DNA of 52,513 nucleotides, taken from positions 1 to 52,513 of IMG/VR virus record IMGVR_UViG_3300025345_000016; one strand, given 5' to 3'. Within the stretch, counting starts at the first letter, position 1. Each line of letters begins with the position of its first letter. Under the pieces are notes generated by a model. That model did not search any database. It worked only from the letters and a program-made list of their open reading frames with translations, and had not been told where the DNA came from. Below, piece after piece: positions 11,482-44,925 of this stretch. Both the position numbers and the translations under genes were made by a program. The stretch comes from a virus.

Positions 11482-11487
11482 AATGTC
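11482..11487 (-). promoter_or_regulatory. ACATT promoter box of the sheath unit
   Basis: GACATT on the minus strand, with 9 nt before the sheath ATG. The box lies in the downstream arm of an inverted repeat (AAAATGTC / GACATTTT, 11480-11503) just after the 107-aa gene, so the same DNA may also weakly terminate upstream transcription. Confidence 0.6.
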
Positions 11488-11502
11488 GCCATTAAGACAT
11501 TT

Positions 11503-11826
11503 TTATTTTTTTCTTTGTTTTTCAACTATTTTACTTCTTTTTAATTTTCCTTTTCTTTTGGCAAGTTCTTTTAATTTTCTTGCCTTTGGTTCATCTTTGG
11601 GATGCCAAATGGATGTAACAACGGTTCTTCCTCCTCTTTTTCCTTTTCTACTTACTACTGCAATGGTTAAAAGATGGCGATACCCATCTTTATCATATAC
11701 TTCTTTTCTGCGATATTTAGTTGCATCAGGAGGATCTTTTCTAATTTTTTGAATAATATAATTTGGTGTTTCTTCTACATATAAAAAATCATCAGGATGT
11801 ATTTTATTATTTTTCTTTTTTGTCAT
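11503..11826 (-). CDS. small basic protein (107 aa)
   Basis: Very rich in Lys and Arg, especially at both ends (MTKKKNNK..., KLKELAKRKGKLKRSK), with a central YRRKEVYDKDGYRHLLTIAVVSRKG segment that could form a small beta domain. Basic charge suggests nucleic-acid binding or DNA packaging association. It starts 9 nt after the tmRNA 3-prime end, so tmRNA and this gene are probably on one transcript. No family recognised. Confidence 0.75.
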   Translation of the reverse strand: MTKKKNNKIHPDDFLYVEETPNYIIQKIRKDPPDATKYRRKEVYDKDGYRHLLTIAVVSRKGKRGGRTVVTSIWHPKDEPKARKLKELAKRKGKLKRSKIVEKQRKK

Positions 11827-11834
11827 TTTTTAAA

Positions 11835-11996
11835 TGGAGGTGGCGGGAGTTGAACCCGCGTCCTCTGGAATCCGTTTTTAGAAAAAATCAAAAAAAATAA
11901 AAAAAGAAAAATCTATAGATCTACTCGTCCGTTATGCGTATACCGTTGCACTTCTCAAAATCAAAGATTCCAGAGTCGAAACCCACTTTCACCCCC
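11835..11996 (-). ncRNA. ssrA: tmRNA (ssrA), unusually short at about 162 nt
   Basis: The 5-prime end GGGGGTG pairs with CACCTCC before discriminator A, giving a 7-bp acceptor stem with the G3-U pair also present in E. coli tmRNA. The 5-prime part continues GTGGGTTTCGACT, the typical tmRNA D-region. The T arm is GCGGG-TTCAACT-CCCGC (11843-11859). A perfect 10-bp P2 helix joins CTCTGGAATC (11966-11975) with GATTCCAGAG (11863-11872). Only 93 nt lie between the P2 strands, so the four pseudoknots of standard tmRNA (about 350 nt) cannot all fit. A possible tag frame GCA ACG GTA TAC GCA TAA (11932-11949) would encode ATVYA; this reading is tentative. CCA is not encoded. A GACATT box lies 5 nt before the 5-prime end. 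Confidence 0.88.
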
Positions 11997-12001
11997 ATAA
12001 A

Positions 12002-12007
12002 AATGTC
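12002..12007 (-). promoter_or_regulatory. ACATT promoter box of the tmRNA
   Basis: GACATT on the minus strand, followed by five A/T bases and then G1 of the tmRNA acceptor stem. Since this gene makes an untranslated 5-prime end, the box here cannot be a translation signal. Confidence 0.65.
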
Positions 12008-13748: not shown

Positions 13749-13749
13749 G

Positions 13750-15180
13750 TTACAAATATAGATAAACCAATTTCATTAAGAAATAAGATGGTGAACTTGT
13801 GGGATTTTCGATAATAAAGAAAGAGTCGATATTATTAAGTATAGTATTAAAAACTTTTTTACTTAAAACATACCATATTTCTCCATCACTAATAGCATCA
13901 TCTATATCTCCCGTATCTGTTCTGATATTTATCCTATTTTCAACGGTTATATTCAATAATATTGCCCCAACATGGGTATTTTCTATAATACTTCTATCAA
14001 TAGTAAAATATTGTGTTTGTCCCGGTCTTAGTATATACTTTTTTCTTATCGTATCATATTCATAACAACATTCGGGAATATTTTTTATTTGTTCTTTTAA
14101 TATTAATTCAAAATATTGTCCATTAGAAAATTCTTTATTAAAAGGCAAATCGTATAAAACATTAAAATATTTTGGAATGGTGTTATAATGAATTTTATAT
14201 TTTAATAATACAGTTTTTGGGTCTCCCTCAATAGAAATATAGTTATAAATAAATTCTATATTATCAATTAAAGTAAAATTACGCGTAGTATCATAAGTTA
14301 ATAAGGAAGAATAATCATATAAATCATTGGTTCTTAATGCAACTGTGGGAGATAAAATTTTAGTATGATATATACCTCTTCTACTTACAAAATTAAATGG
14401 TATAGAAACAATAACACCACTTACATTTTCAGAAAGAAAAACATTCTTAATACGATAATTGCCATTAAATTCATAATATAATCCATCAAGATACAAATTG
14501 TTTATTGCATTAAAATCCATAGAAGAAAAATTTACTTGAAAATATTCTAAACCTCCATAATAAATATAAAAATGTTCAATATAATTGCATTTTAAAGATA
14601 AATTAAGTGCATAATCAGGACTGGTAATATATAAAAAATTAATATTACCAACATCAATATTTAAAGATTTTATTACTGTATCTGGTATGTCTTGCCTATA
14701 ATAAATATAAAGATTTTCTAATGTTGATTTAATAATTATGTTATTAAAAGTGTTAATGTTAAATGCAGTTTCGGGACATAGTCCATCTTGAATGGGGAAA
14801 TTTTCATTAGTAAAATAAATTACTTTTTGTTTAGTGTTAACCCAAACACCATTTACGGAAGAATAAACATTAATTTTTAAAGGATCATATGGTGTTCCAC
14901 TGTTTATACCATTTTTTCTTAAATAATAAAAAGTATTGGTTTCTTTTACATATGCAATTTGATTATCATTTAAATCAATGGTATCTTGCAAATATAAACT
15001 TTGAACATTTTCGAAAAATAATATTTGATTTGCACTTATATTTAATTCAACAAATTCTAATCCATCTTCTGTTGATTTAACAGCAACAAATTTATTTCCT
15101 TGTCCTAAATAAGAATTAGGAGTATCATTTAATTCTAAAAAAGTTTCAGGACAATCACAACAAGGTTTAATAATTGACAT
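13750..15180 (-). CDS. tail fibre protein (476 aa)
   Basis: Residues about 14-44 contain the widespread phage-fibre motif: FLELNDTPNSYLGQGNKF followed by VAVKSTEDGLEFVEL. This corresponds to the F-L-x-L-x-D-T-P-x-S-Y-x-G-Q-x-G-K repeat that precedes receptor-binding regions in many tail fibres. The rest is beta-rich with repeated short strands, consistent with a fibre or beta-helix domain. Cys cluster at the N-terminus (PCCDCPE) is odd for a fibre. It is divergent to the terminase gene, sharing an inverted promoter pair between them. It has an ACATT box with 10-nt spacing and no Shine-Dalgarno. Confidence 0.72.
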   Translation of the reverse strand: MSIIKPCCDCPETFLELNDTPNSYLGQGNKFVAVKSTEDGLEFVELNISANQILFFENVQSLYLQDTIDLNDNQIAYVKETNTFYYLRKNGINSGTPYDPLKINVYSSVNGVWVNTKQKVIYFTNENFPIQDGLCPETAFNINTFNNIIIKSTLENLYIYYRQDIPDTVIKSLNIDVGNINFLYITSPDYALNLSLKCNYIEHFYIYYGGLEYFQVNFSSMDFNAINNLYLDGLYYEFNGNYRIKNVFLSENVSGVIVSIPFNFVSRRGIYHTKILSPTVALRTNDLYDYSSLLTYDTTRNFTLIDNIEFIYNYISIEGDPKTVLLKYKIHYNTIPKYFNVLYDLPFNKEFSNGQYFELILKEQIKNIPECCYEYDTIRKKYILRPGQTQYFTIDRSIIENTHVGAILLNITVENRINIRTDTGDIDDAISDGEIWYVLSKKVFNTILNNIDSFFIIENPTSSPSYFLMKLVYLYL

Positions 15181-15181
15181 T
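15176..15181 (+). promoter_or_regulatory. ACATT promoter box of terminase
   Basis: GACATT with 10 nt before the terminase ATG at 15192. It overlaps the start codon of the divergent fibre gene (CAT at 15178-15180) and is the mirror of the box at 15191-15196. Confidence 0.62.
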
Positions 15182-15190
15182 ACAAATTAA

Positions 15191-15196
15191 AATGTC
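15191..15196 (-). promoter_or_regulatory. ACATT promoter box of the tail-fibre unit
   Basis: GACATT on the minus strand with 10 nt before the fibre ATG. It contains the terminase start codon on the other strand. The flanking arms ATTGACAT (15174-15181) and ATGTCAAT (15192-15199) are exact inverted repeats. Confidence 0.62.
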
Positions 15197-16790
15197 AATA
15201 GATTTAACCAAATATGTCAATAAAATTATTCCTCCAGATGTATATGTTTTAAGAGAACCATTAAAACCATTGTTTAAAATAGAAAAGGGAGATACAAAAG
15301 TATTTATTGCATCAAGATCAGTTGGAAAATCTTATACGATGGGAACTATTGCACTATTACTTGCGAGATTGCAAAGTAATTTAAAAATAGGATATTTTTT
15401 GCCAACCGATCAACAAATTAAAATAACGGTCGAGGAAACATTCAATCGTATTATTAATAACTCTCCTCAATTACTTTTAATGTATTCAAATATTTCTTTA
15501 GGAAAACAAAGAGTCTATATGAAAAAATTTAAAAATAATTCAGTTATATATTTTAGGCATCAGATAGTTAAAACGGAGGATGAGAAGGGAATAAAAATAA
15601 GAGGTGCGCATCCAGATGTTATTATATTTGATGAGTGTCAAGATTTACATTATGATTTTGTTGATAAAATTCGTCCTACTATTATATCATCAAAATATGG
15701 AATAGAATTTTATGCTGGAACATTCAAAACCGAATATCATTTATCATATGATATGTGGTATGAAGGAACAAGACATGAATATATGGTTATATGTCCCAAT
15801 TGTAAAACAGAAAACTTTGCGACAAGAGAAAATATAGATTATGACAATATTTCATATGGCCCTTTTTGTATTAAGTGTAAAACCCAATTAACAAGAAAAA
15901 TTATCAAAGAAAATGGAAAATTAGTGCAAACTAATCCTAATGGAAAATATTTATCGTTAAGATTATCTTCTTTGTTTGCATACTGGATACCATGGAAAGT
16001 TATTGAAAAACAAAGATTAAATACTTATGAGGCATTCGTAAACGAAATTGTTGGAGAACCCATACAATTACAAGATAAAATTATTACGGAAAATGATATA
16101 AGAAAAAATTGCGAAAATTATGATTTTATTAATGTTTATGACCCAACACAACAATATATTTTATTTGGGGGAATAGATTGGGCAGGTGACATGACATATA
16201 CCGTTTTAACGATACTTGGTTATAAAGATGAAAAATTTTATGTTTTATTTGTTAAAAAATATACAGGAACAGAAGGAATAAAAAATACCGTTCATTTAAA
16301 TGTAGAAAAAGATTTAATGCGATTTAGACCGGTTAGGATATTTGGCGATTGGGGAATGGGATTAGGAAGAAATTCATATTTAGAAAGCAAGGGATTTCCT
16401 ATCTTTGAATTTGAATTTACAGGAGGAGATAATCCTCCTAAATATTCTGAATCAAGAGGTCGTTTTATCGGTTCTAAATATCGTTTAATGGAAATGTTTA
16501 TTAAAGACTTAAAAAGTGGAAAAATAAAATTTCCAAGATATGAAATTATTGCACCATTTATAAGAGAATATACAACATATACAAGAACAGAATATAAATC
16601 AAGAAAGGAACCATATTTAACATACGAAAAGGAAGATCCGGAGGCATTAGATGATTCATTTATGTCTTTAATACTTGCATATGGTGCCGCAATAACTTAC
16701 TTATCTAATACTTATACCGGTTCTTCTATTGAAGTATCTTCTTCGTTAGACAAAATATATGGAATTTATGATTGGGATATTATAGTTTAA
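15192..16790 (+). CDS. terminase large subunit (532 aa)
   Basis: Motor that pumps DNA into the procapsid and cuts it. The ATPase domain has a Walker A-like ASRSVGKS (40-47) and Walker B IIFDE (144-148). A zinc site follows with Cys at 201, 204, 226 and 229 (CPNC...CIKC), as in lambda gpA-like terminases. The RNase H-like nuclease domain begins with GGIDWAGD (326-333) and has GDWGMG and PEALDDSF carrying further acidic residues. A frame is open from 15174, but the ATG at 15192 (MSIDLTKYV) is chosen because it stands 10 nt after the ACATT box. It is one of the few plus-strand genes and converges with the chaperone genes (10-bp overlap at 16780-16790). No small terminase was identified. Confidence 0.9.
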   Translation: MSIDLTKYVNKIIPPDVYVLREPLKPLFKIEKGDTKVFIASRSVGKSYTMGTIALLLARLQSNLKIGYFLPTDQQIKITVEETFNRIINNSPQLLLMYSNISLGKQRVYMKKFKNNSVIYFRHQIVKTEDEKGIKIRGAHPDVIIFDECQDLHYDFVDKIRPTIISSKYGIEFYAGTFKTEYHLSYDMWYEGTRHEYMVICPNCKTENFATRENIDYDNISYGPFCIKCKTQLTRKIIKENGKLVQTNPNGKYLSLRLSSLFAYWIPWKVIEKQRLNTYEAFVNEIVGEPIQLQDKIITENDIRKNCENYDFINVYDPTQQYILFGGIDWAGDMTYTVLTILGYKDEKFYVLFVKKYTGTEGIKNTVHLNVEKDLMRFRPVRIFGDWGMGLGRNSYLESKGFPIFEFEFTGGDNPPKYSESRGRFIGSKYRLMEMFIKDLKSGKIKFPRYEIIAPFIREYTTYTRTEYKSRKEPYLTYEKEDPEALDDSFMSLILAYGAAITYLSNTYTGSSIEVSSSLDKIYGIYDWDIIV

Positions 16791-17073
16791 TTGTGATTTT
16801 CTTTGGAAATGATTCAACAATCTTTTTAATTCTTTCTTGTTTAATTGGATCTTCTTTTATAAATTCGGTATAAATATTAGACAATATTTCAACTATCATT
16901 TTGGCGGAAGGATTATCTAAATTTATTTCACTAGAAAGTTGCAATAAATTGGTTATCCCATTTGACAAAAACAACATTAATATTTTTTGTATTACGATTG
17001 CATAAAGATATTCTTCAAATATATCGGTTTTTTCCGGATCTTTAAATAAATAAAGTATTATCCTTGATAAATA
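16780..17073 (-). CDS. tail assembly chaperone, -1 frameshift extension (about 97 aa)
   Basis: The minus-strand frame ending at 16780 is open well upstream of its first ATG (16977), into the end of the 190-aa gene, but has no ATG, GTG or TTG in that part. It is reached from the upstream gene by a -1 shift on CCCAAAT (17073-17079). The extension then reads YLSRIILYLFKDPEKTD... and ends ...SFPKKITIKL. The fusion would be about 283 residues. This is the arrangement of lambda G/GT-type tail assembly chaperones, in which the extended product binds the tape measure protein. A separate 65-aa gene from 16977 cannot be excluded. Confidence 0.6.
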   Translation of the reverse strand, partial: YLSRIILYLFKDPEKTDIFEEYLYAIVIQKILMLFLSNGITNLLQLSSEINLDNPSAKMIVEILSNIYTEFIKEDPIKQERIKKIVESFPKKITIKL

Positions 17074-17630
17074 TTTGGGGTTTGCATGTAAAAATTTACG
17101 AGTTCCTTATAAAACACTCTTGTTGCATTTAATAAATCGGCAAATTCATTAATAATTATCGTCATTTCTTGATATATTTCAATTGGCAAATTTTTAAAGA
17201 AATTTTCATATTCATTAATTTTTTCTTCAAGGGTTGTATCTGGTTTTATTATAGGAGGTAAAATAATATTTTGAATATTATTTTTAAACTCATCCATTAT
17301 ATTTATACTCTCAATATATAATACTGGATAAACCAAAAATAATTTCTTAAAATCTTCTTCTTTTTGTGCATCAAGTTTTGATAAAATATAATTGACTTTT
17401 AGTATTTCATCTGTGGAACAAGATTTTAATGTGAGTAAATAGGGAGGAATTTTATATTCTCTCGTATATCTTTTTTTAATAACGATGTTATATGCAATTT
17501 CAGTTAGTAATTCTTTGGTATTAATTGAAAGTAAATCGAATTTTTTTTGATTGATTGCGTTTCTTATTTCTTTTTGTAAATCGGTAAGATCTTGTATATC
17601 AAAAAAATTGAAATTGGTTGTTTGATTCAT
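17058..17630 (-). CDS. tail assembly chaperone, G-like (190 aa)
   Basis: A helical, mostly acidic protein with an IPPYLLTLKSCSTDEILKVNYILSK block and an EIYQEMTIIINEFADLLNATRVF helix, which resembles tail assembly chaperones of other tailed phages in general pattern. The last four codons follow an in-phase C-CCA-AAT slippery site, and the -1 frame continues far downstream. An ACATT box with 11-nt spacing lies after the capsid terminator, so this is the first gene of its own unit. Chaperone genes usually sit just before the tape measure gene; here the terminase gene is beyond it on the other strand, which is unusual. Confidence 0.6.
   Translation of the reverse strand: MNQTTNFNFFDIQDLTDLQKEIRNAINQKKFDLLSINTKELLTEIAYNIVIKKRYTREYKIPPYLLTLKSCSTDEILKVNYILSKLDAQKEEDFKKLFLVYPVLYIESINIMDEFKNNIQNIILPPIIKPDTTLEEKINEYENFFKNLPIEIYQEMTIIINEFADLLNATRVFYKELVNFYMQTPNIYQG
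17073..17079 (-). other. -1 ribosomal frameshift site CCCAAAT
   Basis: On the minus strand the 190-aa gene reads ACC CCA AAT near its end. C-CCA-AAT fits the X-XXY-YYZ rule exactly in phase, so both tRNAs can slip one base to CCC AAA. The new frame is open for 97 codons to 16780. No strong downstream stem was found; only a weak CCGGAAAAAACCG element. Confidence 0.6.
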
Positions 17631-17641: not shown

Positions 17642-17646
17642 AATGT
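17642..17646 (-). promoter_or_regulatory. ACATT promoter box of the tail chaperone unit
   Basis: TACATT on the minus strand, 11 nt before ATG at 17630 and directly downstream of the capsid terminator. Confidence 0.5.
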
Positions 17647-17650
17647 ATAA

Positions 17651-17676
17651 AAAAATAAAGGGGGCGACCGCCCCCA
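17651..17676 (-). terminator. rho-independent terminator after the major capsid gene
   Basis: On the minus strand GGGGGC-GGTC-GCCCCC (17660-17675) is followed by TTTATTTTTTT. This is a textbook intrinsic terminator, 35 bp after the capsid stop, and should isolate the highly expressed capsid transcript from the chaperone unit. Confidence 0.85.
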
Positions 17677-17710: not shown

Positions 17711-18817
17711 TTATCTGGCAGGAAATGCTATATATGATCTTGAATTTCCAATTGCCAATGCAGTATAATAATATGTATATAATCTAATCATAGGTAATCT
17801 TTCAAATATGTCACTCTTTATGTCCGTAACCGGACCACTTACATAATTAATGCCAAAGAACTCATCACTAGGCAATAAATATCCTAGTGATGCATTATCA
17901 TCAATTTCATCACCTTCTGCGGTATTATAATCATTCTTTTTAACGGCACCTAATACATTAATATTAATTGGTCCTTGAACTTCTCCGGGAATTCCAGTGG
18001 TATAATCAATATATTTAGATGTTGTTTGAACATTAATTCCCGTCAACATTTGTCCTCCAATTACTCTTTCGGCACTTTGAATGAAAATATCAAATGTTAC
18101 AACACCCGCACCTCCAAAATCCCAAGTTGATAATCCATTCCAAAATCTCCAAGGCAATAAGAATAATCCAGGAGAAATTCTTAATTCAGAAATTTTATCT
18201 TTTACGGTTTTAATTAATTCTTTAATACCAACATGGTAATTGGTTCCATCTTCAAAAGATTGGGGAACAGTTGAATCTTCAATTATTACATTACCAGCAA
18301 TTGATTTAACTATTTGGAAATATCTTGCGTTAATAAATTGTGCCTTTTTAGGACCAACGGTATCAGCATCTCTATTTCTTATAATACTTGCAATACCATT
18401 GGCAAAGAAAATTTTATCTTTTTGATCACCAATTCTCTCTTTAATTGCAATTATAACTTCATCAAGGATATTATTTTCAAATAATCTTATTTCTTCTTCT
18501 TTTTTAGTGAAGAAGTATTCAATTTTAAAGAAATATGCGGGTGCAAAACCATTATTAGTTGTGTGTTCAATTGGTGCCTCACCGATTCCTAATGTATATG
18601 CGGGACCAAGATTAGCATTATATCTTACTAATACATATTTTTTCATTGGATTAGTTGGATCAGATGGCATGGTAGAAATATCAACGATTTGAGGAGGAAA
18701 TATTCTATCAACTATACAATCTTCTCTAATAATCGTTTCAATAACTTTATTTACTCTGGAGGAATCCCCACTTACTAACATTTGGGCAAATTTGGTATTT
18801 AAATATGTATTATTCAT
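17711..18817 (-). CDS. major capsid protein, HK97-fold (368 aa)
   Basis: Forms the icosahedral shell. Seen: an N-terminal arm with NTKFAQMLVSGDSS; an E-loop/spine-like stretch (NNILDEVIIAIKERIGDQKD, then KIFFANG); and a C-terminal P/A-domain region with NASLGYLLPSDEFFGINYVSG and a final YTYYYTALAIGNSRSYI. The sequence is balanced in Gly/Ala and less Lys/Asn-biased than neighbours, as usual for capsid genes. It has one of the best ribosome sites of the window (GGGAGGGAAGA, complement of 18822-18832) and a strong terminator. It starts 15 bp after the 211-aa gene, with which it is probably transcribed from the box at 19479. No prohead-protease site was identified. Confidence 0.78.
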   Translation of the reverse strand: MNNTYLNTKFAQMLVSGDSSRVNKVIETIIREDCIVDRIFPPQIVDISTMPSDPTNPMKKYVLVRYNANLGPAYTLGIGEAPIEHTTNNGFAPAYFFKIEYFFTKKEEEIRLFENNILDEVIIAIKERIGDQKDKIFFANGIASIIRNRDADTVGPKKAQFINARYFQIVKSIAGNVIIEDSTVPQSFEDGTNYHVGIKELIKTVKDKISELRISPGLFLLPWRFWNGLSTWDFGGAGVVTFDIFIQSAERVIGGQMLTGINVQTTSKYIDYTTGIPGEVQGPININVLGAVKKNDYNTAEGDEIDDNASLGYLLPSDEFFGINYVSGPVTDIKSDIFERLPMIRLYTYYYTALAIGNSRSYIAFPAR

Positions 18818-18832: not shown

Positions 18833-19468
18833 TTATACTATTTTATTAGAAACTACAATTATTCCATAAAATGGATTAGAACCAATTATTTCTAATTGTT
18901 TATCAGTATCTGCAATAGTATTAACTAATTTCAATTTTGCGTGTTGAGTTGAGGCATTAGGAGGAATCACTTTACAGTAAATGGAACTATTAGGATCTAT
19001 ACTATTATCAATATCAATTAATCCTTGACCAGTAAATTTTGAAGGAATTGTTAAACCATAAAAATATTCAGAATCGGTATTTAATAAAAGGATGGTATAT
19101 ACATCTTTTTTTTCTGTTAATACAAAATCTTTTGATGGATTTTTATAATAATCGCCATATAAAACTATTCCCTTTAATGTAGAAGTATTAGTATAAGGTT
19201 TTAGAATATATAAGTTATTTTCACCGATTTCAACATCATAAATATTACCCGGTATTAAATTTTCGGTTATTGAATCATCCTTAATTGCATATTTTACAAT
19301 AACATTTTGAAGACCGGCAAATGTATTTCCAGACCAAATACCAAATCTTATATTATCTCCTTTATCATTGGCAATCCAATTACCAAGAGGAACTACAATA
19401 TCTTGTAAAGGAAACTTTTCTAAAACTTTTACGATTTCAGGATCAAAATTTATAGGTGTTCCAACCAT
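18833..19468 (-). CDS. possible head decoration or accessory protein (211 aa)
   Basis: Located immediately before the capsid gene in the same unit. The sequence is beta-rich with Gly/Thr/Asn loops (GNWIANDKGDNIRFGIWSG, LTIPSKFTGQGLIDID, SIYCKVIPPNASTQHAKL) and lacks charged helices, which would fit a capsid decoration or stabilising protein. No homology is recognised; the assignment rests on position and composition. ACATT box with 10-nt spacing. Confidence 0.5.
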   Translation of the reverse strand: MVGTPINFDPEIVKVLEKFPLQDIVVPLGNWIANDKGDNIRFGIWSGNTFAGLQNVIVKYAIKDDSITENLIPGNIYDVEIGENNLYILKPYTNTSTLKGIVLYGDYYKNPSKDFVLTEKKDVYTILLLNTDSEYFYGLTIPSKFTGQGLIDIDNSIDPNSSIYCKVIPPNASTQHAKLKLVNTIADTDKQLEIIGSNPFYGIIVVSNKIV

Positions 19469-19492: not shown

Positions 19493-20131
19493 TTAAAAGA
19501 TGAAAATGAGAGAATTTCTAAATTCATCGTATGCAATAATTTTACCTAAAATTAAACCATCAAACAAATCATTTGTTATCGTTAAAAATGCATATTTATG
19601 TTCCCCAATTCTTTCAATAATATTGTTTTCATTATCGGTTATAACATAATTTTTAATTGTAATAAAATAATCACTTTCCTTAAAATCAATAATTTCTCTA
19701 TCTAAAATTTTAATATATCCCTCATTTAATTTATCGGAAATATTTAAAGAATAAATATTGTTTCTTTTTAAATAAAGAAAAGTTCCGAAATTATCATCAA
19801 TTTTGTTAATTAAAATTGAAATTTTTTTTAAATCTTTAAGAGGATTAAATTTATTTTCCGGATATTCATATCCCATTTCGTATTGATTATTTATTTTTCT
19901 TACAACCATAGGAACACAATATTCAACGGTATCATTATTATAAGTTGTTATTTTATAATTTAGAAGAAATAAATTCCCTAAAATACTTTCCTTTATGTTT
20001 TCATTAAATTGAGAATAAAAATAATAACTATCGTTGAAAATTCCAGTAACTAAAACACCAATATAATATGGTTGAATTTTGAGATAATAAATGTTTAAAA
20101 ATACGGATGGACGATAATTAAGTATTTTCAT
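19493..20131 (-). CDS. hypothetical protein (212 aa)
   Basis: Overlaps the 3-prime end of the sigma-like gene by 14 bp. Tyr/Ile/Asn-rich alternating sequence (YYLKIQPYYIGVLVTGIFNDS, VEYCVPMVVRKINNQYEMG), probably beta-rich. No motif recognised. Lies between a sigma-like regulator and the capsid unit; could be structural. Confidence 0.68.
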   Translation of the reverse strand: MKILNYRPSVFLNIYYLKIQPYYIGVLVTGIFNDSYYFYSQFNENIKESILGNLFLLNYKITTYNNDTVEYCVPMVVRKINNQYEMGYEYPENKFNPLKDLKKISILINKIDDNFGTFLYLKRNNIYSLNISDKLNEGYIKILDREIIDFKESDYFITIKNYVITDNENNIIERIGEHKYAFLTITNDLFDGLILGKIIAYDEFRNSLIFIF

Positions 20132-20885
20132 AATTATTCATAATGCAATTTATCGAATTTTCATCAAGAAGTAATAAAAGTAAACATGAAATATAATCTT
20201 CTTCGGGAACATTGGGAACATTGTTATTTAAAAATTCAAGAACGGTATAAACACAAGGACAAGTTTCTTTTTCTTCTTCCATTTGATAAGTTATATTTTC
20301 GTTATCGTCAGAAATAATAACATCTTCCTCGTCCATAAACTCACTTTTATTAAGATAATTTTTTTCTTTGTTTATTTTTATATCACCAAATGAAACAACA
20401 TTTCCGGGTCCTTTATAATAAAGTAAAGAATATATATTTCCTTCAATAAATTTTTCGGCATATCTTAGAAATCTCGCATCCCATTCATTATCAACTTTAA
20501 AAGTATTAAGTGCCTTTATCATTCCTAAAATGGCAACACCTATAATATCAGATAAAGAAACTGATGTATCTATTCTTTTCATAAATCCCCTTTTTGCCTT
20601 TAAAATAATAAAATAAATATTTCCAAGAACTATCCTTTCAATGTATTCCTTCATTTTTTCTTTATCGCCAATACTTTTGTAATAGTTATATTTTTTAACA
20701 TATTCTAATTCTAATTTCTTTCTTTCTTCTGGTTTTAGTTCATGAAAAAGAACATATCCTTTTTCTTTAATATAATTTTCAAGATACAAAATATATTCCT
20801 TGTCTTCTTTTGAAATGGTAAGATCAGGTGAATCATATGTTAAACGAGAAATGATTTCGGATTTCCTAATGGGAAGTTTGTTCAT
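20118..20885 (-). CDS. sigma-70-family-like factor (255 aa)
   Basis: Residues about 86-152 resemble sigma region 2: RIVLGNIYFIILKAKRG, then SLSDIIGVAILGMIKALNTFK and DARFLRYAEKFIEGNIYSLL. These follow the order N-l-v...A, then s-D-I-x-G-x-x-G-l-i-k-A-x-x-x-F, then F-x-x-Y-A-x-x-x-I in sigma factors. The last 80 residues are acidic and Asn/Leu-rich, and no clear region 4 is seen. It could direct host RNA polymerase to phage late promoters, like T4 gp55. A variant box (TTCATT) precedes it with 12-nt spacing. Confidence 0.62.
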   Translation of the reverse strand: MNKLPIRKSEIISRLTYDSPDLTISKEDKEYILYLENYIKEKGYVLFHELKPEERKKLELEYVKKYNYYKSIGDKEKMKEYIERIVLGNIYFIILKAKRGFMKRIDTSVSLSDIIGVAILGMIKALNTFKVDNEWDARFLRYAEKFIEGNIYSLLYYKGPGNVVSFGDIKINKEKNYLNKSEFMDEEDVIISDDNENITYQMEEEKETCPCVYTVLEFLNNNVPNVPEEDYISCLLLLLLDENSINCIMNNYENT

Positions 20886-20888
20886 ATG

Positions 20889-36201: not shown

Positions 36202-37656
36202 ATGGAAAATAAAATATACGACGAAAAAAATATTAATAGAGAAAGACATGATAATCTAAGAAAATCAACCAATGAACACAAAAAACAAATAGTTGATTCT
36301 TGCGGAGATTGCAAAAAAATTAAAGAATTGTTAAAAATTTTGGAAGAAAAAGAAGAAGAAGAAAATATTATAACAAGTAAAAGTAGTGATGTTAAAATTT
36401 CCGCGATAAAAAAAGAAGAAAATTTAGAAGAAATATATGAAAATTTAATAAAAACTTTTTTTAAGAAAAAAAGTTTGGAGGCAATTAATAACAAATATAT
36501 TGTAATTAATCCGTTTAGTGAAGAAGATAAAAAATTTATAAGATTAATATCAAAATTTTCACATATTATTCCCACAAAAATTAAAATTCATAAAAATGAA
36601 GATCCCATAGATGTATTTGAACTAAAAATAATGTGGGATAGGGCAGAAGAAAAAATGAAAAAATTTAAGAAAACACCTAAAAAATATCGTTTTTTAATTA
36701 TACCTACGCATTTATCTTTGTTATTTTATGGTAATTTAACCAAAGAAAATATTAAAGAGGCAAAAAAATTAATTAATAAAACAGAGGAGAATATTATTAA
36801 AGAAAACTTGGATAAAGTAGCATCTAATGTTGGAGATATAGTTACTATGGCAACTTTTGCTTTTTCCCCTCTTTTAATTCCACTAATTGCCCGCGGGATA
36901 ACGCCGCATCCCAGTAAAATATCTTTATCTTGGTGGCAAAGATTTAAACAAAACATATATGATAAATATGAAAAAGTAAAATCAAAAATTGTAGAAAATA
37001 ATGAATTTGCTAGAAGATTTATAGAATCATCGTGGTGGCATAAATTTATGGACAAACATTTTAACGAAAGAAAAAAGGAATATAACAAACAACTATACAA
37101 AAATATTGCACTATTAATATCGGGTATTAATTTGGCAAAAACAATTTATGATTTATCTAGATACCAACCAATTGACATAAGGGGTGCAATTGAAACAGAG
37201 ACACAATTTTATAAACAAAGTAATTTAAAAGAAGTGGGACACATTTCAAAAGAAGTAATGGAGGGATTTCTTGAAAGTGTTCATCAAGGTTTATCTCAAA
37301 TAATACCTCAACATTATTTAAATTTATATAATTACTTTGATCATGTGATTGCACCACCACTTGAATTGTATAAATCAAGTAAAATAGAAGAAGAACTTAA
37401 AAAAATACCATTTCACAAAAAAATATTTTTAAGTTTTTGGGGAACAATATTACATGGAACACCAAATCTCAAAAAAATAGCAAATAAATTAACTAAACAG
37501 GATGTAGAAAAAACAAAACATCAATTAAAAGTATTGGCGTCGTTATTAACATTAATGTATGCAAACAATATTGAGTCATTTCAAAATATACCAAAATATT
37601 CATATAGTGGTTATATTAAAAATCTAGAACCTAAAATAGAACAAACGGTTTCTTAA
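36202..37656 (+). CDS. hypothetical protein with hydrophobic segment (484 aa)
   Basis: Charged N-terminal 120 residues with a coiled coil (KKIKELLKILEEKEEEEN) and a Cys pair (DSCGDCKK). At about 210-232 lies a hydrophobic stretch (GDIVTMATFAFSPLLIPLIA), then two similar WWx(R/K)F motifs (SLSWWQRFKQ and SSWWHKFMDK). The last part is helical. It could be a tail-internal or membrane-interacting protein ejected during entry, but this is only suggested by the hydrophobic segment. It overlaps the convergent sigma-like gene by 4 bp. Confidence 0.65.
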   Translation: MENKIYDEKNINRERHDNLRKSTNEHKKQIVDSCGDCKKIKELLKILEEKEEEENIITSKSSDVKISAIKKEENLEEIYENLIKTFFKKKSLEAINNKYIVINPFSEEDKKFIRLISKFSHIIPTKIKIHKNEDPIDVFELKIMWDRAEEKMKKFKKTPKKYRFLIIPTHLSLLFYGNLTKENIKEAKKLINKTEENIIKENLDKVASNVGDIVTMATFAFSPLLIPLIARGITPHPSKISLSWWQRFKQNIYDKYEKVKSKIVENNEFARRFIESSWWHKFMDKHFNERKKEYNKQLYKNIALLISGINLAKTIYDLSRYQPIDIRGAIETETQFYKQSNLKEVGHISKEVMEGFLESVHQGLSQIIPQHYLNLYNYFDHVIAPPLELYKSSKIEEELKKIPFHKKIFLSFWGTILHGTPNLKKIANKLTKQDVEKTKHQLKVLASLLTLMYANNIESFQNIPKYSYSGYIKNLEPKIEQTVS

Positions 37657-38318
37657 AAATTAATTAAACGATTAATTTCAATAATTTCTTTTAAGTGTTT
37701 TTCTAGTTCATTTTTATTAATATTCGTTTCTTGTGATAAAATATTAATATTGGTTGTTTTATGTTTGCGAATATTTTTGATTATTTCCAATTTTATCGGA
37801 TCTTCTTGAAAATATGCCTCTAATATATCAAGTATAGGAACAGAAGTCGATTCAAAAAGTAATTCCTTTGTATCAATTTCATCACTATCGGTGTTTTTCT
37901 TTTCCATGTTAATAATATCAGTTTTTAATATATCAATTATATTCTTTACTCTTTTTTTATTTAAACCGGTTTTTAAAGAAATATGATTGATATCATCTTC
38001 TGTAATTAAATCAATATCTTTTCCCATTTCATTAATTACATCTTGAACTTTTCTTAAATCCCTTAAAGTTGAACGGGGGATTTGAAATACATATCCTTCC
38101 TGTTCCATTATGGTTATGAATTGTTTTCCTTGATTATGTAAAAAAGTTTTCCAAGAAACATTTTTATTAGGATCATATTTTTTCATACTATCTTTTACAA
38201 TCTGTTTTAGAATAAATTTAATAGTATGTGGAGAAAAAAATTTAGTATAGTGTTTTCCGTATATTTTATATAAGTATTCTATACTTTTTTTCTCATCGAA
38301 AGGAAGATCTTTTTTCAT
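37653..38318 (-). CDS. sigma factor, phage late-type (221 aa)
   Basis: Residues about 47-130 follow sigma regions 2.3-3: KKYDPNKNVSWKTFLHNQGKQFI corresponds to the D-p-x-x-g-x-x-F-x-x-y-a-x-x-x-I motif, FQIPRSTLRDLRK to the -10-binding R-x-P segment, and LITEDDINHISLKTGLNKKRVKNI to region 3. The C-terminal ILSQETNINKNELEKHLKEI may be a helix-turn-helix like region 4. It is likely to redirect host RNA polymerase to phage promoters, perhaps the ACATT boxes. Overlaps the Cas4-like nuclease gene by 4 bp, so the two are co-expressed. Confidence 0.68.
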   Translation of the reverse strand: MKKDLPFDEKKSIEYLYKIYGKHYTKFFSPHTIKFILKQIVKDSMKKYDPNKNVSWKTFLHNQGKQFITIMEQEGYVFQIPRSTLRDLRKVQDVINEMGKDIDLITEDDINHISLKTGLNKKRVKNIIDILKTDIINMEKKNTDSDEIDTKELLFESTSVPILDILEAYFQEDPIKLEIIKNIRKHKTTNINILSQETNINKNELEKHLKEIIEINRLINF

Positions 38319-38896: not shown

Positions 38897-41710
38897 TTAT
38901 TTTTTCTTTTTCTTTTGCGGTTTATTTTCTTCTTCCTCTTCTTGTTGTTGGAGTTGTGATTGTTGTATTAAATAATTTTCAATGATTTCATTGAAGTTTT
39001 TAGTAACTAAATCACTAAAATCAGTTAAGTATTTTAAAAGATTTTGTAATCTTTCATTAGATATACCACTATCCTGAAATTCATTAAATATCATTAAAGT
39101 TGCAAGGGATTTTCTTATTTCTTTTAGTATGAAATAAAGTTTAATAATACTTTCACCATTTTCTATAATACTTAAAACATTGGTTATTATTTCTGCAAAT
39201 TCGGGATCAATTTCTTGTATTTGTTCTATTTGTTGAGATAATACTGGTAATTCATGACTATCGAATATGGGTTCAACATCATCGGCATGTTTTTCATTTA
39301 AATCATATTTCAAAATAGGAAAATTATGATATTTGAATACAATTTTATATTCATTATTCCTTTCTAATATATCAAAATCGGTAAATGAAATTTTATATTC
39401 TCCCAGTTTTTCTAATTTTTTCATATTATTATCAATTTCAACACTTAAATGCGAATTTATGTTTTTATCGGTTTTAATGAATAATACTTTATCATCTTGA
39501 ACAACTTTTATAACATCATTAATGAATTCTATTCCGTTTCCAATAAGAGGTCCATAGTGTATATCTTTAATATAGTTTGGATTATATTTAACTATCAATC
39601 CTTGTTCAATATTTCCATATTTTCTATTCAACATAAAATTACTTAAAATTAAATCTTCTCCATATTTGTAAGAACCGGAATTATAATCATAATATAGTGG
39701 AATAACCTCAAAATGATCCGATTCTTCAAATTTAATAACAAAATCCTTGTTTTTATTTAATTCAATTTCTTTATTTATTTTACTGTTTAGTAAAAATTGA
39801 GATGGTTGAATGTTTTCGGAATATTTAAAAAATGAAAATGGATTATCTGTATTTTCTTTAAAATAAGTAAATGGAATATTGTTTAAAGTGTCAATTGGAT
39901 CAATAAAAGAAGATAATTTATTATCATAATAATCACTTATATTTTTCAAGTGGATGATATTTAAGTTATCAAAATCGGTATTAGAAGTAATGTTATCTTC
40001 AATTAATCTTATATAAGAAGAGAATTTTTTATTAATATAAAATTGTCCATTTTCTTTATCAATTTCTAATAAATCGGATATGGGTATATTGTCTTTATAA
40101 ATTCCATATCCTTTTATTGAAATCTCAATGTCAATATCATCTGATAATTTATTATTATTAATTTCTTTTTCTACTTGAATATTTTCTCCTTCTTTAATAT
40201 AACGGTAAGTATTATTGTTTATTCTAATGATTAATTCGGCATTTTTAAAATCATCAAGTATTTTAGGATATTTGTCAAAACCATAAACGGTTAATATGGA
40301 ATATGTTAATGGATCAAGATTAATTTCGTATAATTTATTGTCTTTATAATAAGTGTATTTGTTATTTGAAATGTATGGATTACTTTCTTTGATTTTTAAT
40401 ATTCCTTTTTCTCTTACTTCATTAAGTAATTCAGATACTTTTTTATCGTCATGGGCAATATTATATTTTCTTAATATTTGTTTTGCGTTTTCTATTACAC
40501 TCTCTTCAATATCGGTATCATCAATAACATATTTTTTATTTTGATTAACATCCACGAAAAAGAATTTATTATCATAATATCCCATAGATAATTTTGTATT
40601 TTGTTGATTTTTCTTAAATTCTTCTATTGGTTGATAATATATATCATATAGTTTATTTTTATCATAAATTAACATATGATTTTTATCTTTATAAATTGCA
40701 TATTTGATCGATTTTAAATCAGGAAGAAGTTTAAGATTACTTAAATTGATTTTAACTTTCGGAATGGTTATTTCATTTATTTCCTTAAAAGTATTTTTAT
40801 CAATGAAAACACCATATTTATCATTTTTAATTTCAATAAGACTATTTTCAAAATTTAAATTAGATGTTTTAATATAAATATTATGTGTTTTGATTTCTCT
40901 GGTTATTTTTACGGGTTGACCAATAGAAGATTGTAATGTTTGGGATAATTCTTTGGAATGTTTTCCCGGAAGTGATAATATTCTTTTGATATAATTAGGT
41001 AATTGATTAATATCGGAAATTTCGTATTGTTTTACTTTACTTAATTTACCATTTTTATATGTTTTATATTCAAGAATATATTTAGATGGATCTTGGGGAT
41101 GTAAATTTAATGTTAATTCAATTTCATGTCTTTTGGTTGTTTCCTTTGCATGTATTATACTTTTATTTCCTATATTTTCTTGAACAGTATCTTCATTGAT
41201 TTTAATAAGTGAATATTTCTTGAATTTATCATTTTTATAACTATATAATGGATTTAAATAGTTTTCTTTTAAATGGTATATAATATCTTCCGATACTTTA
41301 AATAAAAGTAAATTTTTATCAATTAAAAATGCATATTCATCATCGGATACTTTTACTAATTCCCATAAATTAGGTTTATTTTCCGGAAGATATACCGGTA
41401 AAAAGAAATATTTATCAAGATAATATTTATCTTCTGCAATTTTTATACTTCCTTTATTATCTATAAATTTTTCCGCATATTTTACTAAGTATCCATCTCT
41501 ATCGAAAAGTAATATTCCGTATTGAAAATTAAGTGTATTATTAATTAAAGAAGATGTTTTTTGATTTTCGATAATTAATCTTACATCTGTTATAGGAAAT
41601 TTTTCTATAACTTCGTTAGTAGTATTAATCTTTTTACAAAATCCTTCTTTATTTAAAAGTATTTTATCGAAAAGTGAAAAAGATAAGTCTGAATTGAGAT
41701 AAAGTTTCAT
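38897..41710 (-). CDS. large hypothetical protein (937 aa)
   Basis: ACATT box with 9-nt spacing. Highly repetitive in style: short beta segments with KYGVFIDKN, NKLYEI, KHMLIYDKN, YYDNKFFFVDVNQNK, NKYTYYKDNKLYEI, about every 40 residues across 330-500, suggesting a beta-propeller or repeat fold. The C-terminus has Gln-rich and Lys-rich tails (QQSQLQQQEEEEENKPQKKKKK). No enzyme motif. Too large for most known virion proteins outside jumbo phages; role unknown. Confidence 0.75.
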   Translation of the reverse strand: MKLYLNSDLSFSLFDKILLNKEGFCKKINTTNEVIEKFPITDVRLIIENQKTSSLINNTLNFQYGILLFDRDGYLVKYAEKFIDNKGSIKIAEDKYYLDKYFFLPVYLPENKPNLWELVKVSDDEYAFLIDKNLLLFKVSEDIIYHLKENYLNPLYSYKNDKFKKYSLIKINEDTVQENIGNKSIIHAKETTKRHEIELTLNLHPQDPSKYILEYKTYKNGKLSKVKQYEISDINQLPNYIKRILSLPGKHSKELSQTLQSSIGQPVKITREIKTHNIYIKTSNLNFENSLIEIKNDKYGVFIDKNTFKEINEITIPKVKINLSNLKLLPDLKSIKYAIYKDKNHMLIYDKNKLYDIYYQPIEEFKKNQQNTKLSMGYYDNKFFFVDVNQNKKYVIDDTDIEESVIENAKQILRKYNIAHDDKKVSELLNEVREKGILKIKESNPYISNNKYTYYKDNKLYEINLDPLTYSILTVYGFDKYPKILDDFKNAELIIRINNNTYRYIKEGENIQVEKEINNNKLSDDIDIEISIKGYGIYKDNIPISDLLEIDKENGQFYINKKFSSYIRLIEDNITSNTDFDNLNIIHLKNISDYYDNKLSSFIDPIDTLNNIPFTYFKENTDNPFSFFKYSENIQPSQFLLNSKINKEIELNKNKDFVIKFEESDHFEVIPLYYDYNSGSYKYGEDLILSNFMLNRKYGNIEQGLIVKYNPNYIKDIHYGPLIGNGIEFINDVIKVVQDDKVLFIKTDKNINSHLSVEIDNNMKKLEKLGEYKISFTDFDILERNNEYKIVFKYHNFPILKYDLNEKHADDVEPIFDSHELPVLSQQIEQIQEIDPEFAEIITNVLSIIENGESIIKLYFILKEIRKSLATLMIFNEFQDSGISNERLQNLLKYLTDFSDLVTKNFNEIIENYLIQQSQLQQQEEEEENKPQKKKKK

Positions 41711-41719
41711 ACAACATAA

Positions 41720-41725
41720 AATGTC
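41720..41725 (-). promoter_or_regulatory. ACATT promoter box of the 937-aa gene
   Basis: GACATT on the minus strand, 9 nt before ATG at 41710. Confidence 0.58.
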
Positions 41726-41814: not shown

Positions 41815-42618
41815 TTATTTAATTTTTAATTTTTCTAGTATCTTTTGTATAGGTGATTTTTGTTCTTCTTCCGGATGCATTGTTTCAATAACTTTAGTCA
41901 TTCTTTTTTTATGTTTTTCTATTTCTTCTTTTTTCAATCTTTGTAATTCATGTTCCCTTTCTTCTATATAAGGTAATATATATTTCTCATAATTTTCTCT
42001 TGCTTTTTGTTTAATATTCTCATATCTTGTATTATTTATCCAATTTTCATAATGATTTTTTATTTTTGTTAATGTTTCGGGATCATCTATGGTTTTAAGG
42101 AAATGATCTTTGAATTCATTATATATTTTATTTTCTCTAGAACCGGGTTTTAAAAAAGGTTTTCGATACGATAGAACTTTATCTCCCATTATATTTTCGG
42201 GATGAAATATACTTAAAATAGTATTGTGATAAAGATTCTTATCTATATCTTCATATTCATTTAAACCCAATTTTTTATTAATTTTTTTCATAATTGTAAA
42301 ATAGTTAAGAAAATTTATATGATAACTATCTGGTTCGCCAGTTATATACTTAATTCGATGCTTATAGTTTTCTAAAAATACATCTTTAAGATTTTTTCTC
42401 ATTATTTGGAGTTTCTTTTTATCTTGTATTTTTTCAAGTTCATTAGAAACATGTTTATAAAAATTTATATCATTAAAATTTCTATAAAAAGGATAATCTT
42501 CATATTTTCCTTCTTTCCATGCATCCATAAACTCATCATGAAAAGGTTTAGATAATTCAAGATAATCTGAACTTTCTTTTTTGTTTAATAAAATATTTTT
42601 TAATTTTATTAAATTCAT
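41815..42618 (-). CDS. hypothetical protein (267 aa), paralog of the 237-aa gene next to it
   Basis: Helical, Lys/Glu-rich. Shares with the 237-aa protein the order: an LKNIL start, KLGLNEYEDIDKNLYHNT ... HPENI against RLGRDPYDGIDKKIFHKT ... HPRHF, and FLKTIDDPETLTKIKNHYENWIN against FSKSIDYIDDIDTLKELKNKYEEYIN. C-terminal coiled coil (EEREHELQRLKKEEIEKHKK). Own ACATT box (10 nt). Function unknown. Confidence 0.75.
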   Translation of the reverse strand: MNLIKLKNILLNKKESSDYLELSKPFHDEFMDAWKEGKYEDYPFYRNFNDINFYKHVSNELEKIQDKKKLQIMRKNLKDVFLENYKHRIKYITGEPDSYHINFLNYFTIMKKINKKLGLNEYEDIDKNLYHNTILSIFHPENIMGDKVLSYRKPFLKPGSRENKIYNEFKDHFLKTIDDPETLTKIKNHYENWINNTRYENIKQKARENYEKYILPYIEEREHELQRLKKEEIEKHKKRMTKVIETMHPEEEQKSPIQKILEKLKIK

Positions 42619-42624
42619 ATCATT

Positions 42625-43338
42625 TTAAAATGTCTTTTTTCTTTGTATTTCCTTTATTCTTAAATCAATTAAAGGTTCGATTTTCTCTTTATAAAATTTT
42701 TTAATATAAGGTACCCCTTCTTTCATATCTTCTCTGTGTTTTTCAAAATAGTTAATATATTCTTCATATTTATTTTTTAATTCTTTTAAAGTATCGATAT
42801 CATCTATATAATCTATTGATTTAGAGAAAGACTTAAGGCGTTTCTCTTTATAGGAGGAAATTTTACCTTCTTTAAATTTTGGTAAATAAATACTATCTAA
42901 ATCAATAAAATGTCGAGGATGATATAGTTCTAAAAAAGTTTTATGAAAAATTTTTTTATCAATTCCATCATAAGGGTCTCTTCCTAATCTTTCGTTAATT
43001 TTTTTTCTAAAAACCAAATATCCGTTTAAAAGACGGGCCTTATGCTCGGTGTCTCTAAGACTATTTAAAATAAAATCTCTTTTTAAATCTTCTTCTAATG
43101 AATTGGGATACCAATGTTCTTTCATTCTTTTTTCCAACATTTCTAATTCTTTATCCGATAAACTATCTATGACATTAGCAAAATGACTAGGATGATAAAT
43201 ATCTTTAGAAAATCCAGAAACAAATTCGTGTATTAAATCATACTGCTCTTCTCCCTTTCCTTTTATAAAATCTTTAAGAAATTTTAATTTTGCTTCTTTT
43301 ATATTTTCTAGTATATTTTTTAATTCTAAAAGTAACAT
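42625..43338 (-). CDS. hypothetical protein (237 aa), paralog of the 267-aa gene
   Basis: See the shared blocks under the 267-aa gene. Adds a second HPSHF-type motif near residue 55 (DIYHPSHFANVID), so the HP-x-(H/N)-(F/I) unit seems repeated within it. Its first 12 codons and the upstream 20 bp are almost copied in front of the 36-aa gene at 43890. Own ACATT box. Function unknown. Confidence 0.75.
   Translation of the reverse strand: MLLLELKNILENIKEAKLKFLKDFIKGKGEEQYDLIHEFVSGFSKDIYHPSHFANVIDSLSDKELEMLEKRMKEHWYPNSLEEDLKRDFILNSLRDTEHKARLLNGYLVFRKKINERLGRDPYDGIDKKIFHKTFLELYHPRHFIDLDSIYLPKFKEGKISSYKEKRLKSFSKSIDYIDDIDTLKELKNKYEEYINYFEKHREDMKEGVPYIKKFYKEKIEPLIDLRIKEIQRKKTF
42629..42634 (-). promoter_or_regulatory. 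ACATT promoter box of the 267-aa gene
   Basis: GACATT on the minus strand, 10 nt before ATG at 42618; the 19 bp including the ATG equal those before the 52-aa gene at 25823. Confidence 0.58.
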
Positions 43339-43345
43339 AACATTA

Positions 43346-43780
43346 TTAAATGTGCTTTGGTATTTCTAATTTCTGATCCGTATATGCAAGAAAAGGATTT
43401 AATGTAAAAGTATTATATACCGCAATATGATGTACATATGATTCTCCCTTTTCCAATGATTGCATAATACGATTCATTACTTTATTAACATCTATTATTT
43501 CTTTATATTTGTCTAAATGTTCAACGATATCATTTAAATTATTAAATTCTCCTTGTGATAATGTAAATATTTTTTGAACATGATGATTAGGAAATTTTTC
43601 ATCTGGCATGTATGTTTCACCTATAACGAATAAACGATATTTAACTTTATTTCCTTCTTGTATGGGAGTAAATACAACATGTATTTTATCTTTTTTATTA
43701 AATTCTTTTTTGTCAAGTATTTTACTAGGATCTCCTTCGTATATTCTATCAAAATTATTTTGTGAGTATTTGATTAACAT
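43346..43780 (-). CDS. hypothetical protein (144 aa)
   Basis: Start codon shares its A with the stop of the 36-aa gene (TAATG), so it is coupled to it. Mixed alpha/beta (KIHVVFTPIQEGNKVKYRLF, VIGETYMPDEKFPNHHVQKI). Two adjacent His pairs (PNHHV, SYVHHIA) might bind metal, but no known motif is seen. Function unknown. Confidence 0.72.
   Translation of the reverse strand: MLIKYSQNNFDRIYEGDPSKILDKKEFNKKDKIHVVFTPIQEGNKVKYRLFVIGETYMPDEKFPNHHVQKIFTLSQGEFNNLNDIVEHLDKYKEIIDVNKVMNRIMQSLEKGESYVHHIAVYNTFTLNPFLAYTDQKLEIPKHI
43349..43354 (-). promoter_or_regulatory. ACATT promoter box of the 237-aa gene
   Basis: CACATT on the minus strand, 10 nt before ATG at 43338; the same sequence recurs at 43901-43906. 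Confidence 0.58.
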
Positions 43781-43890
43781 TATTTTTGATATTTACTAAT
43801 TATCTTTTCTGTTGATAATCTATCATAATATTCGCTAAAAATTGCCGTTTTATAGTTCTCTAGTATATTTTTCAATTCCAAAAGTACCAC
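43780..43890 (-). CDS. short truncated paralog (36 aa), GTG start
   Basis: GTG at 43890 follows an ACATT box with 10-nt spacing. The first residues (MVLLELKNILENYK) match the start of the 237-aa protein (MLLLELKNILENIK), then the sequence diverges (TAIFSEYYDRLSTEKIISKYQK) and stops. It is best explained as a copied promoter and 5-prime gene end now fused to other DNA, serving as a leader for the coupled 144-aa gene. Confidence 0.55.
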   Translation of the reverse strand: MVLLELKNILENYKTAIFSEYYDRLSTEKIISKYQK

Positions 43891-43897
43891 AACATTA

Positions 43898-44467
43898 TTA
43901 AATGTGTTTTTTAGTTTCTTCTATAATAGAAGATAATATATCTTTTTCATTTATATTGTAAAGTTCTATTCTTAAATCAAGTATAATAGACAATTTATCA
44001 TTAGTTGATAAAAATTTAGTTTTTACATTATTTTCAAGAAGAAAATATTGAGAAAGTATATTACTATCAATTTTTAGAATTTTAGATAATTCGTTTAAAT
44101 CAATTATAATTTTTCCATTTTCTAATTTAGATTTTAATGTTATGGAACTGAATTGGTCTCTTTGTAATTTCAAGAGGGCATATTTCTTTCTTAAAAACAT
44201 ACTGACTTTACTTTTAATAACGCCATTTTTTCCGATAAATGTATCAAAATTATCAATAATTTCTTTAATATCACTACAAATTACATCTTTATAGGGAAGT
44301 TCATTTAAAAATTTTTGAATATATTTGTTTCCGGTTTTTTTATAATGTTTCTTAGTATAGAATTGAACAATACGATATATAATTTTATTAATATATTCAA
44401 GTATATTTTTATCTGATATTTTATTTTTAAAATCTTGATTACAAACTTCGCAGAAGAAATCTAACAT
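43898..44467 (-). CDS. hypothetical protein (189 aa) with N-terminal Cys pair
   Basis: N-terminal FFCEVCNQDF could be half of a zinc site, but no second CxxC pair is seen. The rest is helical and basic, with GVIKSKVSMFLRKKYALLKL and a possible helix-turn-helix near 125-150 (DLNELSKILKIDSNILSQY). A DNA-binding regulator is possible. Starts 12 bp after the stop of the 143-aa gene. Confidence 0.7.
   Translation of the reverse strand: MLDFFCEVCNQDFKNKISDKNILEYINKIIYRIVQFYTKKHYKKTGNKYIQKFLNELPYKDVICSDIKEIIDNFDTFIGKNGVIKSKVSMFLRKKYALLKLQRDQFSSITLKSKLENGKIIIDLNELSKILKIDSNILSQYFLLENNVKTKFLSTNDKLSIILDLRIELYNINEKDILSSIIEETKKHI
43901..43906 (-). promoter_or_regulatory. ACATT promoter box of the 36-aa/144-aa unit
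   Basis: CACATT on the minus strand, 10 nt before GTG at 43890, inside the end of the 189-aa gene. Confidence 0.55.
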
Positions 44468-44479
44468 ACAATGAAAATT

Positions 44480-44911
44480 TTAACGGATAAGATGAATATT
44501 ATTTAAAAGATACCATTTATGTTGATAAAGTTCTTGTTCGGCCTCTTGTTGTAATTGTTCTCCAATAGAAATATAAAGTTGCATTTTCATTTCAAAATCA
44601 TTGACTTCTATGGCATCACCTATACTTGCGGCATTTTGCATATAATATAATCCTTTCTTTTTTAATAAAATACCAACAGTTAATTTTAAAAATGACCATT
44701 TAATTGCGGGAAGTGGTATAACGGGAAGAAAATATGTTGTCTCGTATAATGATTCCCATCTTGTTGATGCCTCTCTTAATGCATCACATATTTCATCATT
44801 AGAAAATTCGGTTCCATCCGGATTATAATGCAAATATCTTTTAGAAGGAATATCTTGGAGATATTTTCTAACTTCATCAATATATTGATTAAATCTTCCA
44901 CAGTTATACAT
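44480..44911 (-). CDS. hypothetical head-tail connector-like protein (143 aa)
   Basis: An in-frame TTG lies 9 bp upstream, but the ATG at 44911 is chosen because it gives the normal 8-nt spacing from the ACATT box. N-terminal helices contain SNDEICDALREASTRWESLY; C-terminal helices EMKMQLYISIGEQLQQEAEQEL. The all-helical small form with a DALREAS-W-x-x-L pattern resembles head-tail adaptor proteins of other tailed phages, but the match is weak. Confidence 0.6.
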   Translation of the reverse strand: MYNCGRFNQYIDEVRKYLQDIPSKRYLHYNPDGTEFSNDEICDALREASTRWESLYETTYFLPVIPLPAIKWSFLKLTVGILLKKKGLYYMQNAASIGDAIEVNDFEMKMQLYISIGEQLQQEAEQELYQHKWYLLNNIHLIR

Positions 44912-44919
44912 TATTTTCA

Positions 44920-44925
44920 AATGTG
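44920..44925 (-). promoter_or_regulatory. ACATT promoter box of the 143-aa gene
   Basis: CACATT on the minus strand, 8 nt before ATG at 44911. Together with the terminator at 44963 it marks the border between the helicase unit and the downstream unit. Confidence 0.58.

Follow-up and report, generated by a model that had tools for sequence, protein, structure and literature searches.

A (G/C)ACATT box at a fixed distance from a purine near gene starts, a probable promoter of an uncultured, very divergent phage

What is the role of a short word that recurs just in front of start codons, and, if it is a promoter, which polymerase reads it? We address this question for the (G/C)ACATT box (SACATT) in IMGVR_UViG_3300025345_000016, an uncultured virus; the whole analysed stretch, called the window below, spans 52.5 kb at 24% GC and comes from a record that may be incomplete. 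The window is that of a tailed phage. By family matches it encodes a terminase large subunit (15192-16790, plus strand), a SNF2-type helicase, adjacent genes for a PrkA-like kinase and a DUF444 protein (5386-8333, minus strand), and a 2141-aa protein (44987-51412, minus strand) with a DnaB-type helicase domain at residues ~600-970 and no family match outside that domain, while the majority of its proteins are without family. In named phages, homologues of PrkA are found mainly in Thermus phages (27-30% identity) and those of the terminase mainly in Bacillus phages (~25% identity); the lineage is uncultured and very divergent. PrkA and DUF444 homologues also lie near one another in Thermus phage phiYS40 and in several uncultured phages.

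Counting both strands, the window contains 36 copies of the box, of which 19 lie 10-20 nt upstream of the start of a gene, or of the tmRNA, on the same strand. The box precedes about two fifths of gene starts, and many boxes fall within the 3' end of the gene before them. ACATT alone is not rare (236 copies versus 223 expected), and it is its placement that stands out: ACATT lies within 24 nt upstream of 20 of 48 genes versus 68 of 1764 other ATGs (p = 3e-15; 3.5e-12 after Bonferroni correction), and CACATT in the same interval before 9 of 48 genes versus 2 of 1764 other ATGs. Because some starts had been picked by eye, we repeated the test with automatic ATG-only ORF calls, which gave p = 4e-11, and without any gene calls, where 20 of the 36 SACATT copies precede an open frame (an ATG or GTG 0-8 nt past the eighth base after the box, opening a frame of 45 codons or more) versus 43 of 1391 for the 29 letter permutations of the box. 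Inside genes the box is found 14 times on the sense strand versus 16.5 expected, a depletion that is not significant, and less often on the antisense strand (5 versus 11.1).

The boxes before the starts at 42618, 43338 and 43890 are not independent, because the genes there are recent paralogues, and we therefore redid the key tests with two of them left out. These three paralogous genes (41815-43890, minus strand) have duplicated upstream boxes, and one has shrunk to 36 codons. With two of the three copies omitted, a de novo ZOOPS search of the upstream regions returned S-ACATT-W with a log-likelihood of 48, above all 20 intragenic control sets (at most 39.6), so that the enrichment proposed in the initial annotation is borne out by motif discovery. 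Moreover, when 53 sequences were compared, namely the window, phiYS40 and loci no shorter than 14 kb, the window had the strongest start-proximal word other than Shine-Dalgarno. We found no conserved hexamer, -35 or extended element in the 30 nt upstream of the boxes, and a literature search for the motif returned nothing relevant.

What lies at a fixed distance from the box? The eighth base after it (base 8) is a purine at all 19 gene-proximal sites, G at 16 and A at the other three, whereas at the 17 SACATT copies elsewhere base 8 is G in two and a purine in ten (Fisher p = 8.6e-5 for G, two paralogous sites removed). When G of a start codon and the G of the tmRNA are excluded, G is still found at 10 of 13 sites versus a background of 12.8% (binomial p = 2.3e-7). 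When the start codon serves as the anchor, no position has G at more than 7 of 17 sites. Box and purine thus keep a fixed distance, whereas the start codon lies at a variable distance from either. T predominates at base 7, and Y(-1)R(+1) is the usual preference at transcription initiation; judged by these letters, T at base 7 and G at base 8 look like a T(-1)/G(+1) initiator. The -10 elements of bacteria have A(-11) and T(-7), and SACATT, set in the NANNNT register, retains both.

With base 8 taken as +1, the predicted leaders are 0-4 nt long, with one exception of 8 nt. On the minus strand, giving the predicted +1 and leader in brackets, GACATT at 11482-11487 precedes gene 9325-11472 (G 11474, 2 nt), GACATT at 15191-15196 gene 13750-15180 (G 15183, 3 nt), CACATT at 19479-19484 gene 18833-19468 (G 19471, 3 nt), CACATT at 21706-21711 gene 21390-21695 (G 21698, 3 nt), CACATT at 23868-23873 gene 21720-23858 (G 23860, 2 nt) and GACATT at 25834-25839 gene 25665-25823 (G 25826, 3 nt). 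GACATT at 26594-26599, before gene 25841-26578, has the long leader (A 26586, 8 nt). CACATT at 31617-31622 would leave gene 31244-31609 leaderless, the predicted +1 being the G of its GTG start at 31609. Further along this strand, GACATT at 41720-41725 precedes gene 38897-41710 (G 41712, 2 nt), GACATT at 42629-42634 gene 41815-42618 (G 42621, 3 nt), CACATT at 43349-43354 its paralogue 42625-43338 (G 43341, 3 nt), CACATT at 43901-43906 the paralogue 43780-43890, which has a GTG start (G 43893, 3 nt), and CACATT at 44920-44925 gene 44480-44911, which starts with ATG (A 44912, 1 nt). On the plus strand, GACATT at 15176-15181 precedes the terminase ATG at 15192 (A 15189, 3 nt), GACATT at 31627-31632 gene 31644-32174 (G 31640, 4 nt) and GACATT at 36188-36193 gene 36202-37656 (G 36201, 1 nt). 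In two cases the base-8 register shifts the start to the next in-frame ATG: CACATT at 35339-35344 on the plus strand, with +1 predicted at G 35352, moves the start of gene 35350-35607 to 35356 (leader 4 nt), and CACATT at 26759-26764 on the minus strand, with +1 predicted at G 26751, moves that of an uncertain 51-aa ORF (26598-26753) to 26750 (leader 1 nt).

The boxes of the initial annotation are real, since ACATT is present on the given strand at all 15 of its coordinates (its text spoke of fourteen and listed fifteen), and to these we add 26594-26599, 26759-26764, 35339-35344, 36188-36193 and a box before the tmRNA (12002-12007). One member is doubtful: TACATT at 17642-17647 (minus strand, before gene 17058-17630) lacks the G or C in front and has T at base 8. 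The proposed spacing of 7-11 nt between the last T and the start codon holds for most sites, although the full range is 5-15 nt. Starts had been said to cluster 5-7 nt after this T, but the conserved purine is at base 8 instead.

The tmRNA is short, 165 nt (11832-11996, minus strand; RF00023, 66.3 bits), and its GACATT at 12002-12007 reads GACATT-TTTAT-GGGGGTGA; the Rfam match has its 5' end at the first G of the last block, 11996. This end is base 6 after the box, not base 8, an exception that nevertheless fits ordinary variation in discriminator length. ARAGORN misses this tmRNA, and the Rfam alignment passes over the greater part of the model's middle; no CCA end is encoded after the discriminator. 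It is possible, as far as its letters tell, that this is a minimal tmRNA.

Is the box, then, a signal for transcription or for translation? An element bound by the ribosome or by the leader would account for boxes lying near start codons and being absent from genes with Shine-Dalgarno sites. However, the start codon may lie anywhere from 5 to 15 nt after the box whereas the purine keeps a fixed distance, and the box also precedes the non-coding tmRNA; for these reasons the box is a promoter rather than a ribosome-binding signal in our reading, and we consider a translation signal highly improbable. Several sites read ACATTTTATAATGT or ACATTTAATAATGT, which brings to mind a dyad operator for a repressor or activator, the box being paired with an AATG-like partner (ACATT-N4-AATGT). 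Such dyads are a minority, though, and their second half is conserved only at the base-8 G, so an operator hardly seems a credible account. From the letters alone, the box is very probably a promoter.

Which enzyme would read it? The window encodes two sigma-like proteins. The first candidate, of 255 aa (20118-20885, minus strand), matches sigma-70 region 2 by sequence: it matches the NCBIfam models SigE (1.5e-5), SigK (4.5e-5) and sigma70-ECF (4.7e-4), seven sigma models besides SigE lie below 0.005, all under the curated whole-protein cut-offs, and there are matches to phrog_351 (7e-5) and to PDB entry 8b3z, titled SigE N-terminal domain (~1e-3). It has no recognisable region 4; Pfam sigma models gave no match in the whole record, this protein included, and an AF2 model built without an alignment was too poor to be usable. 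Upstream of this gene, 504 nt (20886-21389) hold no called gene and no SACATT, and parts of them resemble a decayed coding frame. The second candidate, of 221 aa (37653-38318, minus strand), has no sequence match, and its predicted fold is sigma-like. In the single-sequence model (pLDDT 72.5), regions 2, 3 and 4 follow in order, and sigma factors make up nearly all VIA rows and the leading Foldseek rows, at middling scores (best Z 7.6, below 8, with 3.0 A over 76 residues of region 2; Foldseek E at least 0.014). No DFDxD or DYDxD catalytic motif of cellular-type RNA polymerase occurs in the six frames of the window, whose record may be incomplete, and no RNA polymerase family was found among its scanned proteins.

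Since the phage encodes two sigma-like proteins, the box is likely to be read by the host's RNA polymerase with a phage sigma, and with no polymerase motif in the window this is also the simplest reading. We propose that SACATT-W-N6-R(+1), R being nearly always G, acts as a single-element promoter of the -10 type with no -35. RNA polymerase, probably the host core with a phage-encoded sigma, would melt the DNA at the box and start RNA at the purine 8 nt downstream; most mRNAs would then begin 0-4 nt (8 at most) before the start codon and would be translated without a Shine-Dalgarno site. We regard this mechanism as a whole as likely. The initial annotation's view of a phage-specific promoter with near-leaderless mRNAs thus remains the best reading, resting on the fixed spacing from box to purine, the box of the tmRNA, the lack of boxes at Shine-Dalgarno genes and the two sigma-like proteins; its phage-specific part we infer, and the same arguments support it. 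More tentatively, the main gene programme of the phage may be built to be near-leaderless: ~18 single-element promoters would be fused to start codons and recognised by a sigma of the phage that consists largely of region 2, with one signal setting both transcription and translation start and most mRNAs needing no Shine-Dalgarno site.

Could a host sigma factor instead read the box as its -10 element, the phage simply using host promoters placed at its gene starts? The NANNNT register would suit any member of the sigma-70 family. In Deinococcus-Thermus, moreover, a -10 element adjoining the ORF, with leaderless or near-leaderless mRNA, is common (PMC12340547), and this arrangement is closer to the box pattern than that of phage AR9, although there it is a host-type element of a bacterial phylum. 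However, few positions of SACATT agree with TATAAT, the window's single good host-type promoter reads TTGACA-17-TAAAAT, and the genes with Shine-Dalgarno sites have no box, all of which makes a host -10 element quite improbable. The one Thermus phage that we counted, phiYS40, has upstream regions dominated by GGAGG.

An RNA polymerase, or another sigma, could lie outside the window because the record may be incomplete, and this leaves room for a promoter read by a non-virion RNA polymerase of the AR9/phiKZ kind, with the sigma-like proteins as specificity subunits. AR9 late promoters read AACA-6N-T(A/G), where +1 is the final base, and those of phiKZ TATG, with G as +1 (PMC5312081); the box sites likewise show ACA ... 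T-R(+1), that is, a short element, a T-purine initiator, G or A as +1 and many promoters per genome. The fold of AR9 gp226, furthermore, is sigma-like although its sequence shows no similarity (PMC9209446). But in AR9 and phiKZ the reader is a phage multisubunit RNA polymerase, whereas in the window no RNA polymerase catalytic motif was found in six frames and no such family among the scanned proteins, and spacing and letters differ: the box has S for the first A, a conserved TT after ACA, and an ACA-to-T spacing of 8 nt rather than 6, its purine lying 8 nt past the box. The 255-aa sigma, moreover, matches cellular sigma factors by sequence, and we consider an AR9/phiKZ-type enzyme unlikely. 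The near-leaderless arrangement is a real difference from AR9, because AR9 leaders are 26-491 nt long (PMC5312081).

How does our preferred reading, host polymerase with a phage sigma, compare with known phage sigma promoters? Leaders in T4 are not tied to the start codon. T4 late promoters, TATAAATA, are read by the sigma gp55 (PMC1524935), and phiEco32 middle and late promoters, tAATGTATAtA, by gp36 (PMC4281155, PMC8948821). As in those systems, the box sites have an element ~6-8 nt before the inferred +1, no -35 and a phage sigma-like protein. T4 is alike in its single short element at ~-13 to -6, without a -35, and in its small phage sigma on host RNA polymerase; unlike the box, it additionally requires the gp45 clamp and gp33, and S-ACATT-W departs from the TATAAATA consensus. 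In phiEco32 the sigma is a phage ECF-type and the single element lies 6-8 nt upstream of +1, but the element is another one, and there are three middle and three late promoters per genome, whereas the window would have ~18 over its 52 kb, every one of them at a start codon. The box would work like the gp55 and phiEco32 sigma promoters with a new sequence, and by sequence it is a member of none of the systems compared.

Genes with Shine-Dalgarno sites lack the box, as the initial annotation had it (0 of 8; p = 0.015), while its statement that genes internal to overlapping runs lack the box is a trend only (2 of 13 overlapping genes have it versus 19 of 37 others; p = 0.047). The right-end genes (44987-51689) have AGGAG-type sites, and upstream of them lies a contrasting sigma-70-type promoter, TTGACA-17-TAAAAT (51738-51766, minus strand), which is intergenic, agrees at 11 of 12 positions and is among the best-scoring promoter-like sites of the scan; because the sigma-70 scan of the window overall did no better than shuffles, it is suggestive only. 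These right-end genes, with a host-like promoter and AGGAG, would be expressed first in our scheme, as would suit early genes transcribed by the host polymerase. The putative capsid gene (17711-18817), named from context as it has no family match, has a Shine-Dalgarno site and no box; expected to be late, it does not fit a simple rule that late genes carry the box. Directly after this gene, a strong G+C hairpin, GGGGGCGGTCGCCCCC, and the T run behind it (17659-17675, minus strand) make a probable terminator.

Relatives were sought in IMG/VR with the terminase, PrkA, the 2141-aa helicase, the portal and the capsid, and in genome contigs with the terminase; these searches yielded one almost identical fragment, distant homologues that lack the box, or no hit, and thus no informative relative. 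Only one close relative turned up, a 16-kb fragment, identical at 99.8% over 14.8 kb and not divergent enough for footprinting, and L056, a distant relative that shares the terminase and a putative portal, uses Shine-Dalgarno sites. More generally, we propose for this phage lineage, uncultured and very divergent, a promoter code that also predicts the start base, and with it goes the predicted re-annotation of two start codons, from 35350 to 35356 and from 26753 to 26750. It would offer a clean test case for how phage mRNAs with leaders of 0-4 nt compete for ribosomes, and likewise for a small phage sigma reading a -10-only promoter.

Two further features of the window lie toward its left end. 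The match between L010 and the protein at the left end (2-955) is only 83%, although the adjoining region has 99.8% identity, and G+C-rich inverted repeats are found around 2107-2550.
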